Part shown: one piece after another, positions 3,524 to 18,084 of the stretch
Position numbering within the stretch: position 1 is the stretch's first letter
How the letters are laid out: every line of letters starts with the position of its first letter
DNA from: Bacteroidetes bacterium ADurb.Bin302
Lineage (GTDB): Bacteria > Bacteroidota > Bacteroidia > Bacteroidales > Paludibacteraceae
Direction of reading: 5' to 3'
DNA: 18,084 nucleotides
Assembly (NCBI GenBank): GCA_002069025.1
Contig: MWBK01000127.1
Coordinates: 1 to 18,084 of the forward strand
Program-made: the position numbers and the translations under genes
The notes under the pieces: model-generated
The model's input: the letters and a program-made list of their open reading frames with translations, nothing else
Database searches by the model: none
Told to the model about the DNA's origin: nothing

Positions 3524-4831
3524 CTATACCCCTATACCCTCGTAATAAAATCCGAGATTTTCTAATTCTTGCTTATCATAAATATTGCGACCATCAATTA
3601 TAATTGGCGTACGCATTGTTTTAAGCAATACCTGCCAACTTGGCAACCTGAATTCTTGCCATTCTGTTACCAAACAAATTGCATCAACATTTAATGCTGC
3701 ATCATATATATCGGAAGCAAATGTCAGGTTTTTGTCTGTGATGTTTATTTTCTTTACAACAGGATCGAATACCCTAAGCTTACAACCTGCTTCCAATAAC
3801 TTATTAATCAAAACTACTGATGGTGCCTCGCGCATGTCATCTGTATTTGGCTTAAATGTAAGCCCCCATATTGCGACTGCCTTATCATTCAAATTATTAT
3901 TAAACTTATTCGCAAGTTTCTGGTATAAGATAGACTTTTGATTATCATTAACCTCTTCAACAGCATTTAGCAATTGCATATTGTAGCCGTTTTGCTGTGC
4001 AGTTTTAATAAGAGCCTTTACATCCTTAGGGAAGCAAGAGCCACCGTATCCGCAACCTGCATACAAAAACTTACTACCAATACGAGGATCGCTACCTATG
4101 CCTCGTCTTACATTGTTTATATCAGCCCCTACCAATTCACAAAGATTTGCAATATCGTTCATAAAACTAATACGAGTAGCCAACATCGAATTTGCAGCAT
4201 ATTTAGTCATTTCGGCTGATGGTATATCCATAAATATTACTCGGAAATTATTTAGTAGGAATGGTTTATAAAGCCTGCTCATAATCTCCTTTGCAGTATC
4301 ACTCTCTACGCCAACAACTACTCTGTCGGGGCTCATAAAATCTTTAATTGCAGCGCCCTCCTTTAAAAATTCGGGGTTGGAAGCAACATCGAATGTAAGT
4401 TTTGAATTACGTTTATCTAATTCTGCTTGTATAGCTTGCCTTACTTTTTTTGATGTGCCAACTGGTACTGTACTTTTTGTAACAAGCAATATGTGCTTGT
4501 TCATATTTTTACCTACAGTGCGTGCTACTTCTAATACATATTTAAGATCTGCACTGCCGTCTTCATCAGGTGGAGTACCTACAGCACTGAATACTACTTC
4601 TACTGTATTCAGCACCTCTGTTAAATCTGTAGTAAAACTTAGTCGACCGGCAGATACATTTCTTAGTACTATTTCTTCTAATCCCGGTTCAAATATGGGT
4701 ATTTCGCCTTGCTTTAAAGCATTGATTTTATTTGCATCAACATCAACACAAGTAACGTTTGTACCCATTTCGGCAAAACAAGCACCACTTACCAAACCTA
4801 CATATCCTGTACCTACTATTGCTATGTTCAT
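3524..4831 (-). CDS. ugd: UDP-glucose 6-dehydrogenase
   Basis: A 435-residue UDP-glucose dehydrogenase that makes UDP-glucuronate with two NAD+ per turn in the cytoplasm. The Rossmann motif GTGYVG is at 7-12 and the acidic DVD at 30-32. The middle domain has FLKEGAAIKDFMSPDR, EMTKYAANS (Lys210 and Asn214) and the catalytic cysteine Cys266 in GGSCFPKD. The C-terminal domain carries the WGLTFKPNTDDMREAPS signature. Length and motif order match the family. The product could enter the exported polysaccharide or be a precursor for other uronic or pentose sugars. Its ATG lies only 9 bp from the degenerate edge of the left heptamer array (25 bp from the clean array), so its upstream context has been replaced by the repeat/S23 insertion and expression probably depends on transcription through it. 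Confidence 0.96.
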   Translation of the reverse strand: MNIAIVGTGYVGLVSGACFAEMGTNVTCVDVDANKINALKQGEIPIFEPGLEEIVLRNVSAGRLSFTTDLTEVLNTVEVVFSAVGTPPDEDGSADLKYVLEVARTVGKNMNKHILLVTKSTVPVGTSKKVRQAIQAELDKRNSKLTFDVASNPEFLKEGAAIKDFMSPDRVVVGVESDTAKEIMSRLYKPFLLNNFRVIFMDIPSAEMTKYAANSMLATRISFMNDIANLCELVGADINNVRRGIGSDPRIGSKFLYAGCGYGGSCFPKDVKALIKTAQQNGYNMQLLNAVEEVNDNQKSILYQKLANKFNNNLNDKAVAIWGLTFKPNTDDMREAPSVVLINKLLEAGCKLRVFDPVVKKINITDKNLTFASDIYDAALNVDAICLVTEWQEFRLPSWQVLLKTMRTPIIIDGRNIYDKQELENLGFYYEGIGV

Positions 4832-4840
4832 ATTTTATCG

Positions 4841-4968
4841 TGTAATTGTGTAATCGTTTAATGTTTAATGTGTAATGTGTAATGTGTAATGTGTAATGTG
4901 TAATGTGTAATGTGTAATGTGTAATGTGTAATGTTTAATGTGTAATGTGTAATGTGTAATGTGTAATG
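4841..4968. repeat. Left heptamer tandem array (TGTAATG)n, inverted partner of the right array
   Basis: Sixteen exact-length 7-bp units occupy 4857-4968. Thirteen read TGTAATG and three read TTTAATG (at 4857, 4864 and 4934). Two degenerate 8-bp copies (TGTAATTG, TGTAATCG) precede them at 4841-4856. The array starts 9 bp upstream of the ugd start codon and ends 1 bp before the TAA of the S23 gene (4970-4972). In the operon's sense strand it reads CATTACA and has no stop in any frame. The units run opposite to those at 5351-5469, so the two arrays are inverted repeats about 380 bp apart. Confidence 0.97.
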
Positions 4969-4969
4969 T

Positions 4970-5350
4970 TTATTTTGTTGTGCTGCGTTTTATGTAACTG
5001 CGTTTCAGTGCACATAATTTATTTGCTATTTTGTCTATATAATTTTGTTGTAATTCGTCTATTTGAATTTTAGTAATATAACTTAAATCCATTGCAACTT
5101 GAAATTGACAAAAGGTTTCAAGTAATGAGCCATAAGCAATTTCTATAAAACGTAACTTCTCTTTATCTGATTCACGAGAAGTACCCTCTACAATATTTGA
5201 TACAACAGAGACTGCAGCTCTTTGTAATTGTGTACATAAAGCATAACGTTCTTTATCAGGGAACATCGCAGTCAAAATATAAACCTGACCAACATACGAC
5301 CGCGCATCTTTATAAACCTCTAAATGCTCAAAACTATACTGTTTCGCCAT
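4970..5350 (-). CDS. Four-helix-bundle protein, 23S rRNA intervening-sequence (S23/IVP) family
   Basis: A 126-residue protein starting at the ATG at 5348-5350 (MAKQYSFEHLEVY). A GTG two codons earlier (5354-5356) lies inside the repeat array and is a poor start. It matches the S23/IVP four-helix-bundle family: F-x-x-L-x-V-Y-x-x-A-R near the N terminus, then QLQRAAVSVVSNIVEG at about 42-57 (family pattern QL-RA--S---NI-EG), then RFIEIAYGSLLE at about 67-78. The family is known from ORFs inside intervening sequences of bacterial 23S rRNA and is related to the accessory protein Avd of diversity-generating retroelements. Its molecular function is unsettled; a nucleic-acid-binding role is plausible. 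Here no rRNA, reverse transcriptase or variable repeat is nearby. The coding sequence touches a heptamer array at each end, so 5' and 3' untranslated sequence are all repeat. It shares no pathway role with the flanking sugar-dehydrogenase genes. Confidence 0.9.
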   Translation of the reverse strand: MAKQYSFEHLEVYKDARSYVGQVYILTAMFPDKERYALCTQLQRAAVSVVSNIVEGTSRESDKEKLRFIEIAYGSLLETFCQFQVAMDLSYITKIQIDELQQNYIDKIANKLCALKRSYIKRSTTK

Positions 5351-5469
5351 ACACACTACACATTACACACTACACATTACACACTACACATTACACATTA
5401 CACACTACACATTACACACTACACATTACACACTACACATTACACACTACACACTACACATTACCCACT
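5351..5469. repeat. Right heptamer tandem array (ACACATT/ACACACT)n, inverted relative to left array
   Basis: Seventeen contiguous 7-bp units: eight ACACACT, eight ACACATT and one ACCCACT (5463-5469). The two main forms alternate for most of the array. In the operon's sense strand the units are TGTAATG and TGTAGTG, so each contains an overlapping stop/start (TAATG or TAGTG). The array begins directly at the ATG of the S23 gene. Its other end supplies the TAG stop (5468-5470) of the upstream dehydrogenase. TTTAATG, the variant in the left array, is absent here, and TGTAGTG is absent there, so the two arrays have diverged separately. Confidence 0.97.
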
Positions 5470-6733
5470 ACAACCTCACAAACGCTTTAACATCGTATAT
5501 TACAGCTCCTTGATCTTTATATTTTTTAAAATCAAAATTCAGAAATTCATCATGAGATACAGCAGCTATAATAGCCTGATATTTTTTAGCGGGATTAATG
5601 CCATCCAACAAATCGATGCCGAATTCTTCTTTTACAGCATGTTTATCTGCCATTGGATCATAAATATCTACATTAACTCCAAAATCGAGTAATTCTTTAT
5701 AAATATCAATCACCTTGGTATTGCGCATATCGGGGCAATTTTCTTTAAATGTTATTCCTAGAATTAATACATTGGAATTTTTAATTTTATGGTCAGCTTG
5801 TATCATCAATTTAAGTGTGCGTTGAGCTATAAATTGAGCTATATTATTGTTTACTCTACGACCTGATAATATTACTTCGGGTTCGTAGCCTAATGATTTT
5901 GCCTTGTGAGCCAAATAATATGGATCTACACTTATACAATGTCCGCCAACCAAGCCCGGACGGTATTTTCGGAAATTCCATTTTGTACCAGCAGCTTCAA
6001 TTACATCATTGGTATCAATACCTATACGATCAAAAATAAGAGCCAATTCGTTCATAAACGAAATATTTATATCGCGTTGGGTATTTTCAATTGCTTTTGC
6101 TGCTTCTGCAACCTTCATACTAGGTGCTTTATGTGTACCTGCAGTAATAACTGAACGATACAAATCGTCAACTATATCGGCTATTTCAGGAGTAGAACCT
6201 GAGGTTATTTTCTTAATTGTAGTAAGGGTATTTTCTTTATCTCCGGGATTTATACGCTCAGGAGAATATCCGCAGAAAAAATCCTGATTAAACTTAAGAC
6301 CTGATTGCTTTTCGAGTACAGGTACACAATCGTCTTCAGTACAACCGGGATATACTGTAGATTCGTAAATTACAATATCGCCTTTTTTCAAAACCTGACC
6401 CAACATTGCTGATGACTTAAGTAATGGAGTAAGGTCTGGATTATTAAATTCATCAATAGGAGTTGGTACCGATACTATAAATGTATTAAAATCTTTTAAT
6501 TTTTCGGGATAACAAGCAAAACTTAAGCCTATTCCACTATCCGATTGATATAAATCGGTAGCTTCTTTCATGGCTTTTAAGTTGGCTTCGAGAGTATGGT
6601 CCTTACCTTCTTGTAATTCTGCTATACGAGCTGCATTTATATCAAAGCCTAAGACTCTATATTTTTTACCGAACTCGATGGCTAATGGTAAGCCTACATA
6701 ACCTAAACCGATTATCGCAATTTTTCGTTCCAT
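5468..6733 (-). CDS. UDP-N-acetylhexosamine 6-dehydrogenase (TviB/WbpO/CapL type)
   Basis: A 421-residue nucleotide-sugar dehydrogenase predicted to oxidise UDP-GalNAc or UDP-GlcNAc at C6 to the uronic acid, giving a charged sugar for surface polysaccharide. The Rossmann loop GLGYVGLP is at 9-16. IYESTVYPGCTEDDCVPVLE at about 122-141 is the segment that places it with TviB/WbpO/CapL rather than with UDP-glucose dehydrogenases. The catalytic Cys266 is in GGHCISVDPYYL, and the C-terminal domain has LGITFKENCPDMRNTK. It starts 12 bp after the Wzc-like gene. Its stop codon TAG is formed by the edge of the heptamer array, and the tail after DVK is only five residues long. The insertion may therefore have replaced the native C terminus; this is inference, as the catalytic parts are intact. 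GalNAc versus GlcNAc specificity cannot be told. Confidence 0.92.
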   Translation of the reverse strand: MERKIAIIGLGYVGLPLAIEFGKKYRVLGFDINAARIAELQEGKDHTLEANLKAMKEATDLYQSDSGIGLSFACYPEKLKDFNTFIVSVPTPIDEFNNPDLTPLLKSSAMLGQVLKKGDIVIYESTVYPGCTEDDCVPVLEKQSGLKFNQDFFCGYSPERINPGDKENTLTTIKKITSGSTPEIADIVDDLYRSVITAGTHKAPSMKVAEAAKAIENTQRDINISFMNELALIFDRIGIDTNDVIEAAGTKWNFRKYRPGLVGGHCISVDPYYLAHKAKSLGYEPEVILSGRRVNNNIAQFIAQRTLKLMIQADHKIKNSNVLILGITFKENCPDMRNTKVIDIYKELLDFGVNVDIYDPMADKHAVKEEFGIDLLDGINPAKKYQAIIAAVSHDEFLNFDFKKYKDQGAVIYDVKAFVRL

Positions 6734-18026: not shown

Positions 18027-18060
18027 GATAAAAAAAGAGGCTTCAGCCTCTTTTTTTATC
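18027..18060. terminator. Strong bidirectional intrinsic terminator after deaD
   Basis: Starting directly after the deaD TAA, 18027-18042 and 18045-18060 are exact 16-base reverse complements. The GC-rich core GAGGC/GCCTC is flanked by A7 on one side and T7 on the other, so the hairpin can act as a Rho-independent terminator on either strand. Confidence 0.93.
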
Positions 18061-18084
18061 CCTTCACCCTTCACCCTTAACCCT
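18060..18084. repeat. Start of a second heptamer array (CCCTTCA)n, cut by window edge
   Basis: CCCTTCA, CCCTTCA, CCCTTAA and a partial CCCT run from 18060 to the last base, a clean 7-bp period directly abutting the deaD terminator. On the minus strand the unit is TGAAGGG. Only about 3.5 copies are visible, so its extent and orientation relative to any partner are unknown. The sequence differs from the TGTAATG array, but the period and the tight abutment to a gene end are the same. Confidence 0.75.

Follow-up and report, generated by a model that had tools for sequence, protein, structure and literature searches.

The best described relatives of the locus reported here are the intervening sequences (IVS) of bacterial rRNA genes, which in Leptospira, Coxiella, CPR bacteria and others place an S23 open reading frame (ORF) within an inverted-repeat stem and have a patchy distribution. 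The original prediction had likened our locus to these sequences and the likeness holds, for tandem heptamers lie directly before the S23 ORF of the Coxiella 23S rRNA IVS, their number varying between strains (passages on the IVS in PMC4990558). The same passages report cutting of rRNA intervening sequences for Coxiella, Salmonella and Leptospira and state that a solved member of the S23 family forms a pentameric ring (PMC4990558). The 16S and 23S rRNA insertions of CPR bacteria sometimes encode IVP as well (passage on rRNA insertions in PMC11270868). Unlike an rRNA IVS, the unit that we describe sits between the protein-coding genes of an operon rather than inside an rRNA gene, carries tandem heptamer arrays on both sides and occupies a site behind a stop codon.

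Intergenic arrays of heptamer units with variable copy number form a second body of knowledge, which includes the cyanobacterial heptamer repeats known as STRR, GGGAATC in Xanthomonas and Nostoc, and TAACTGA in Beggiatoaceae. Heptamer repeats and convergent pairs have been noted in Xanthomonas and Nostoc, two Xanthomonas genomes having 70 and 75 convergent pairs at close spacing (passages in PMC4692102), and TAACTGA arrays occur in Beggiatoaceae, Cyanobacteria and Bacteroidetes, with a possible link to rearrangement (passages in PMC4679880). The heptamer-repeat passages of these papers draw no link to S23 genes (PMC4692102, PMC4679880), and a word search of the former retrieved neither 'S23' nor 'four helix'. 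Within the open-access literature, which leaves most subscription papers and bioRxiv outside, we came across no account of operon-borne S23 units flanked by heptamer arms.

The window, an 18,084-nucleotide stretch of contig MWBK01000127.1 from Bacteroidetes bacterium ADurb.Bin302, carries a run of polysaccharide genes on its minus strand, and the junction between two UDP-glucose/GDP-mannose dehydrogenase (ugd) genes of this run is filled by an S23 gene and two heptamer arrays. The S23 / 23S_rRNA_IVP four-helix-bundle gene (4970..5350, minus strand) has an ATG start and encodes 126 aa, with a GTG start at 5356 also open. Upstream of it on the coding strand is a 5' arm of 123 bp (5350..5472, minus strand) composed of the heptamers GTGTAAT/GTGTAGT (15 strict units, 17.6 copies by Tandem Repeats Finder, TRF), and downstream is a 3' arm of 130 bp (4840..4969, minus strand) composed of ATTACAC/ATTAAAC (18 strict units, 18.3 TRF copies). 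The strict count, which matched the coding-strand patterns GTGTA(A/G)T before the gene and ATTA(C/A)AC after it, places the arms in inverted orientation. At period 7, TRF gave 94% matches within the array at 4840-4969 and 86% within that at 5350-5472. The upstream host gene (5468..6733, minus strand), called as a dehydrogenase from its ORF and profile match, has its stop codon (5468-5470) inside the 5' array, and 8 bp separate the 3' arm from the start codon of the downstream dehydrogenase (3524..4831, minus strand). The S23 protein matched PF05635 (E=1.3e-29, 102.9 bits against a cut-off of 33.8) and TIGR02436 (E=2.2e-26, 92.2 bits against a cut-off of 24), has a solved relative in XCC0516 (2gsc; E=9.2e-22) and 233 homologues at E≤0.001, and combines a pI of 8.7 with the motif RxxxSxxxNxxE. 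It is the sole family-matching ORF of the unit, the other ORFs crossing the repeats on the opposite strand. An S23 gene between inverted heptamer arrays, as originally predicted, was thus borne out by TRF, the strict count and both family profiles. The 16 and 17 unit copies first given are close to the strict 15 and 18, and the 12-13 bp spacers described at the two preceding junctions measured 12 and 13 bp from the ORF coordinates. The polysaccharide operon proposed as the setting stands too, but it is not exclusive, as similar units adjoin many kinds of genes.

The unit strand folds as a long hairpin of -265.5 kcal/mol with the gene in the loop and the two paired arms as the main stem, whereas 20 shuffles averaged -156.4 kcal/mol (z=-27.5). 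Like its relatives, the unit bears terminal inverted repeats. We recognized no transposase or nuclease in the S23 element, 0 PADLOC families of anti-phage defence at E≤0.01, and no Rfam match in 18 sources, the window included. A second period-7 array (CCCTTCA, 3.6 copies) is located at 18060-18084, 33 bp beyond the stop of a DEAD-box helicase gene, and runs off the window end. A near relative (L323) has a short junction without this array behind the same helicase gene; the CCCTTCA array may be an arm of another element.

The nearest record (L001; RZYM01000006.1) carries at the same place an S23 protein identical to the window's, and its arms follow the same patterns with 2 strict units upstream and 21 downstream, versus 15 and 18 in the window. 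Given the TRF and strict counts, the fold and this second record with the same repeat unit, chance or an assembly artefact of this contig is an unlikely explanation of the window arrays. The window copy has unusually long ends, and its arms would have grown by tandem slippage. The upstream dehydrogenase is seven codons shorter at its C-terminus in the window than in its L001 counterpart and stops at the boundary of the array (window 5468-5490), as if array turnover were eroding the end of the host gene. Another S23 gene (L002, 75% identity) lies on the L001 contig, and a further relative (L003, 69%) comes from a soil genome bin; both have weaker inverted heptamer arms and lie between other genes.

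The generality of such arms was assessed in a sample of 24 loci from a genome scan plus a class-wide set (395 genomes, 253 with a match), from which we took 30 loci and 60 further stretches down the ranking, skipping three: a place already in the set, one at the edge of its contig and one interrupted by stop codons. Arms were scored by aligning the 150 bp upstream of a gene with the reverse complement of the 150 bp downstream. Controls were the other genes of the same loci, except those below 90 aa or near the S23 gene, and the counts excluded the window itself and ORFs with flanks shorter than 150 bp or containing N. The predicted excess of flanking inverted arrays at S23 genes, set as a test beforehand, was pronounced: scores of at least 24 were reached by 77 of 115 S23 genes versus 9 of 261 controls, and scores of at least 40 by 24/115 versus 0/261. 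Small control genes (up to 200 aa) reached 24 in 3 of 104 cases, and when arms of separate loci were paired with each other, 42 of 1131 combinations did so. A non-redundant set, from which repeated S23 copies were also removed, had inverted arms at 122 of 169 S23 genes (59/90 in the class-wide sample alone), while at this threshold 40/169 lacked arrays in either orientation and 7/169 had direct ones only. Direct-orientation scores of at least 24 were seen at 19/115 S23 genes and 13/261 controls, mostly alongside inverted ones (direct without inverted, 5/115 versus 10/261), and a rank test of direct orientation found no difference between S23 genes and controls (p=0.27). The arm units are degenerate 7-8-mers across S23 loci, and the periods of strong arrays were 7 (51), 14 (23) or 8 (18) in 92 of 102, with 7 or 14 in 74. 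Inverted arms at S23 genes are real and general. They also occur in bins labelled Cloacimonadota, Falkowbacteria (Patescibacteria) and Nitrospira, labels that were taken from metagenome-bin record titles and can reflect contaminated bins.

Cyanobacterial plasmids extended this pattern. Sixteen S23 places were drawn from 26 plasmid rows, some of them repeated, after Riemerella, Gemmatirosa and a duplicate Trichormus record were set aside, and nine of the 16 had inverted heptamer arms, two of the nine being near-identical copies. Because of this proportion, we suggest that some cyanobacterial heptamer arrays are arms or remnants of S23 elements. A phage collection searched with an S23 query (L290) gave no match at 1e-5. 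Arrays also stand alone. In Flavobacterium, this was so in five of the six genomes with a match to the unit: 11 of 16 array places had no S23 gene in the stretch examined and only 3 were directly beside one, and we rejected the notion that the arrays mark S23 genes exclusively. In one Flavobacterium genome (G610), two loci (L193 and L203) have short arrays of the same heptamer inside ORFs, apparently without closing them.

Genomes can harbor many S23 genes, as in one Cloacimonadota bin with 29 matches (some partial) and in six other genomes, picked for S23 richness, with 10 to 23. Nearly every locus carries its own unit, common to both arms. In eight genomes, the two arms of one locus matched in 34 of 46 cases but arms across loci in only 17 of 262, figures that led us to reject a single genome-wide heptamer for all copies. 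S23 pairs of at least 55% identity amid unrelated neighbours had an arm in common in 58 of 106 pairs, which derive from 52 loci and are not independent, whereas a permutation null gave a mean of 6% and a maximum of 22.6% (2000 permutations); arms scoring below 24 were left out of these sharing counts, as of the distance counts given below. Over all pairs, the rank correlation between S23 identity and arm similarity was 0.088 and not significant (permutation maximum, 0.111). On the evidence of these alignments, the link between arm and gene shows only for close relatives.

Two copies in a single-contig genome of 5.08 Mb (L084 and L085) delimit the unit that the relatives share. Their proteins are 84% identical and the DNA is alike from 60 bp before the gene to 44 bp after it, arm to arm, and unlike beyond. 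The copies agree at 93% of positions across 57 bp of the 5' flank, and their genes have a dS of about 1.6 and a dN/dS of 0.056. Among 69 S23 pairs, in which fourfold sites were on average 35% identical, the flank score exceeded the 95th percentile of the null in 51 (5') and 44 (3'). Judged from these comparisons, the arms are retained in copies that have come close to saturation at synonymous sites. Of 15 pairs named for dN/dS estimates, 3 were not computed and 2 were saturated; nine of the ten finite values fell between 0.04 and 0.10, the tenth being 0.30, ratios that reveal the signature of purifying selection on the S23 protein. Low dN/dS and flank conservation together make the protein and, in most pairs, the arms look as though they have been kept by selection.

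Junctions conserved between relatives were examined for the presence and absence of the unit. The thiolase|acyl-CoA dehydrogenase junction was followed within a single family, in which 32 of 36 genomes had a match and 30 loci were compared. An S23 gene was called in 6 of the 30, one of them broken; by eye, two more had decayed remnants with arms and one an array alone; the gene pair lacked a called S23 gene in 17, no dehydrogenase motif was present within 900 bp in 3, and one reached the contig end. The best filled and empty pair of genomes there (G336 with S23, G397 without it and with a 26-bp spacer) have thiolases that are 98% identical. At a permease|ATPase junction of Flavobacterium, for which 98 of 150 genomes had a match, S23 was present in 5 of 30 loci and the pair was without a called S23 gene in 19, the ATPase not being found in the other 6. 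The spacer of those 19 pairs was at most 98 bp in 15 and 0-1 bp in 5. Two S23 subfamilies with different units occupy this junction and therefore probably arrived independently, and some of the loci (L211, L234) hold an array without S23. One plasmid site has S23 in two records (L297 and L315) and lacks it in L313, while in a fourth record, L314 (Nostoc sp. ATCC 53789 plasmid pNsp_c), only the arms are present. These inverted heptamer arms lie at about 1150-1380 with no S23 between them; they are a MITE-like or decayed form.

Other plasmid sites of S23 were cas6|cas4, cmr2|cmr3 and, in antisense, the gap separating a pair of ribonucleotide reductase genes, positions that would be expected of insertions into junctions. 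A related PCC 7002 plasmid lacks S23 at cmr2|cmr3, where 12 bp lie between the genes. At the cas6|cas4 site of a Pseudanabaena galeata plasmid (L293, 1382-1956), the long arrays flanking S23 are direct rather than inverted. The passage on such genes in PMC3936711 reports 18 IVP genes in cas loci as an associated function. Comparisons of relatives at the same junction show the S23 element as a discrete unit, present in some and absent from others. The empty sites with short spacers that had been foreseen were thus found for other copies, but the window's own ugd|ugd junction gave no clean empty counterpart among 30 loci from 144 matching genomes. The nearest relative at that junction (L149) has a Ugd protein 75% identical, a 28-bp spacer and a different next gene. 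In another lineage (L154), a different S23 gene with its own inverted arms lies directly behind a dehydrogenase 61-62% identical, and a Flavobacteriaceae bin (L008) places S23 between two genes that resemble sugar dehydrogenases by sequence only.

The sharpest comparison came from related cyanobacterial plasmids, in which the unit is present in Trichormus variabilis ATCC 29413 (L301) and Scytonema NIES-4073 (L303) and absent from Aulosira NIES-50, Nostoc linckia NIES-25 and Microchaete NIES-3275 (L309-L311). The flanks of filled and empty sites are 97.5-99.6% identical per side. The sequence GTAAT, with the upstream stop codon inside it, occurs once in the empty site, and L301 has a copy at each end of a 423-bp stretch. 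By this alignment the insertion is clean and duplicated 5 bp of the target. No copy of the element's repeat unit is located close to the clean empty site (L310). The 5' arm of L303 is 14 bp, or two units, shorter than that of L301, and this particular element has a modest inverted score (22). Related elements with similar ends reside at other sites (L302, L320). Over seven filled and empty comparisons of related elements, the target duplication was clean in one, near-clean in one (TTCTA in L320 versus L294, read by eye) and not clean in the five others (L297, L304, L302, L294, L295). Two plasmids of one Nostoc strain carry the same row of genes with S23 at different junctions (L294 and L320), and the DNA identity of these S23 genes is 57%; on a third plasmid, two four helix bundle genes are listed in the corresponding stretch.

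Where both neighbours agree in direction, S23 was in sense orientation in 115 cases and antisense in 4, counts that depend on genes called mechanically from ORFs and on neighbour calls that may be wrong in places. The upstream stop codon was a median of 3.5 bp from the 5' arm (n=112; 35 overlap the stop), and the 3' arm a median of 8 bp from the next start codon (n=91). This sense bias and closeness to stop codons may reflect an insertion preference or the survival of harmless copies. Arrays acting as suppliers of stop codons or of stop-start coupling were considered and rejected, as the units differ too much between loci. Taken as comparative evidence, the loci show S23 elements that carry the same ends at different sites, lie mostly in sense close behind stop codons and decay in place.

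We interpret the window unit as one copy of a minimal mobile element with the order 5' arm - S23 gene - 3' arm, a reading to which we assign a probability of about 0.72. The arms of S23 elements are inverted repeats of a degenerate unit, 7 or 8 bp long and peculiar to each element lineage, and the element is best read as kin to rRNA intervening sequences, without a recognized transposase. A vertically inherited S23 gene could instead be part of a regulatory cassette embedded in the operon, with an mRNA hairpin that tunes the flanking genes and arrays whose length is phase-variable. The 115 to 4 sense bias, the strong purifying selection on S23, the strong hairpin of the window and the retention of the same junction in several Flavobacterium species are all in keeping with such a cassette. 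It accords poorly, however, with patchy presence at orthologous junctions that have short empty sites, with different S23 subfamilies at one junction, with close S23 relatives that have common arms amid unrelated host genes, and with decayed copies. Nor is there a G-U signal: in the 77 loci with arms, arm mismatches were G-U in 58 cases and A-C in 63, with no bias to the RNA strand, and because of this we do not claim selection on RNA pairing. On balance, we consider the cassette unlikely.

A passive unit, moved by homologous or microhomology-mediated recombination between dispersed arrays and carrying an S23 gene with a cell function, would agree with the lack of a recognized transposase, with the single clean target duplication in seven comparisons and with the arrays that are dispersed alone. 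The 5-bp duplication, the conserved ends at unrelated sites (L301/L302/L320) and the clean empty site (L310) without the element's repeat units nearby speak against it and leave it somewhat less probable than the cassette. More improbable still is that ordinary genomic heptamer repeats such as STRR, GGGAATC and TAACTGA expand anywhere and that S23 genes are merely among the places reached. Solo arrays of the same unit are indeed scattered in Flavobacterium genomes, and such repeats have been described in these groups (passages in PMC4692102 and PMC4679880). Yet inverted pairs of arms are much more frequent around S23 genes than around the control genes of those loci, the unit differs between the S23 loci of one genome while being the same in both arms, and close S23 relatives elsewhere have it in common. 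A mobile S23 element also resembles insertion sequences and MITEs in its terminal inverted repeats, its 5-bp target duplication (in one case), its decay products and its multicopy state. Unlike them, it has no recognized transposase, its arms are made of short tandem units and it has a strong sense bias in operons. REPIN/RAYT systems, in which a protein gene has its own dispersed short repeats, offer a looser analogy.

How a mobile S23 element would work may be gleaned from its relatives. Avd of diversity-generating retroelements, a protein of related sequence, binds RNA and reverse transcriptase. The window S23 protein matches Avd weakly and below cut-offs (25.8 bits against 40 for bAvd, PF22296; 23.4 bits against 80 for DivGenRetAVD), and no reverse transcriptase was found among the five window proteins scanned. 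To our knowledge, inverted arms are not a feature of diversity-generating retroelements. The resemblance of PF05635 to Avd has been noted before (passage in PMC10053308). The median pI of 164 S23 proteins is 8.7. Mostly basic and related to Avd, S23 would recognize its own arms, as DNA or as an RNA hairpin, and would assist a trans-acting enzyme in copying or moving the element. The arms would pair in the operon mRNA and, as with rRNA intervening sequences, RNase III would cut out the S23 frame, an excision that would limit harm to the host genes. A broader proposal would be a widespread transposase-free mobile class, spread over five phyla or more, whose S23 protein acts as a pentamer that reads its own arms and directs sense insertion at operon stop codons; rRNA intervening sequences would be the members residing in rRNA, Avd a domesticated relative and many dispersed heptamer repeats array-only remnants; we put it forward tentatively, as a possibility that we would not yet favor.

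The window unit is best filed as an operon-dwelling, apparently mobile variant of the S23/IVS kind. The S23/IVP family, whose members are usually annotated only as 'four helix bundle protein', thereby gains a testable biology as a self-contained element with cognate repeats. Mobility would explain why S23 genes are found beside so many kinds of genes, and the elements offer an origin for unexplained bacterial heptamer repeats. Furthermore, the spread of rRNA intervening sequences, an old question, becomes directly testable.
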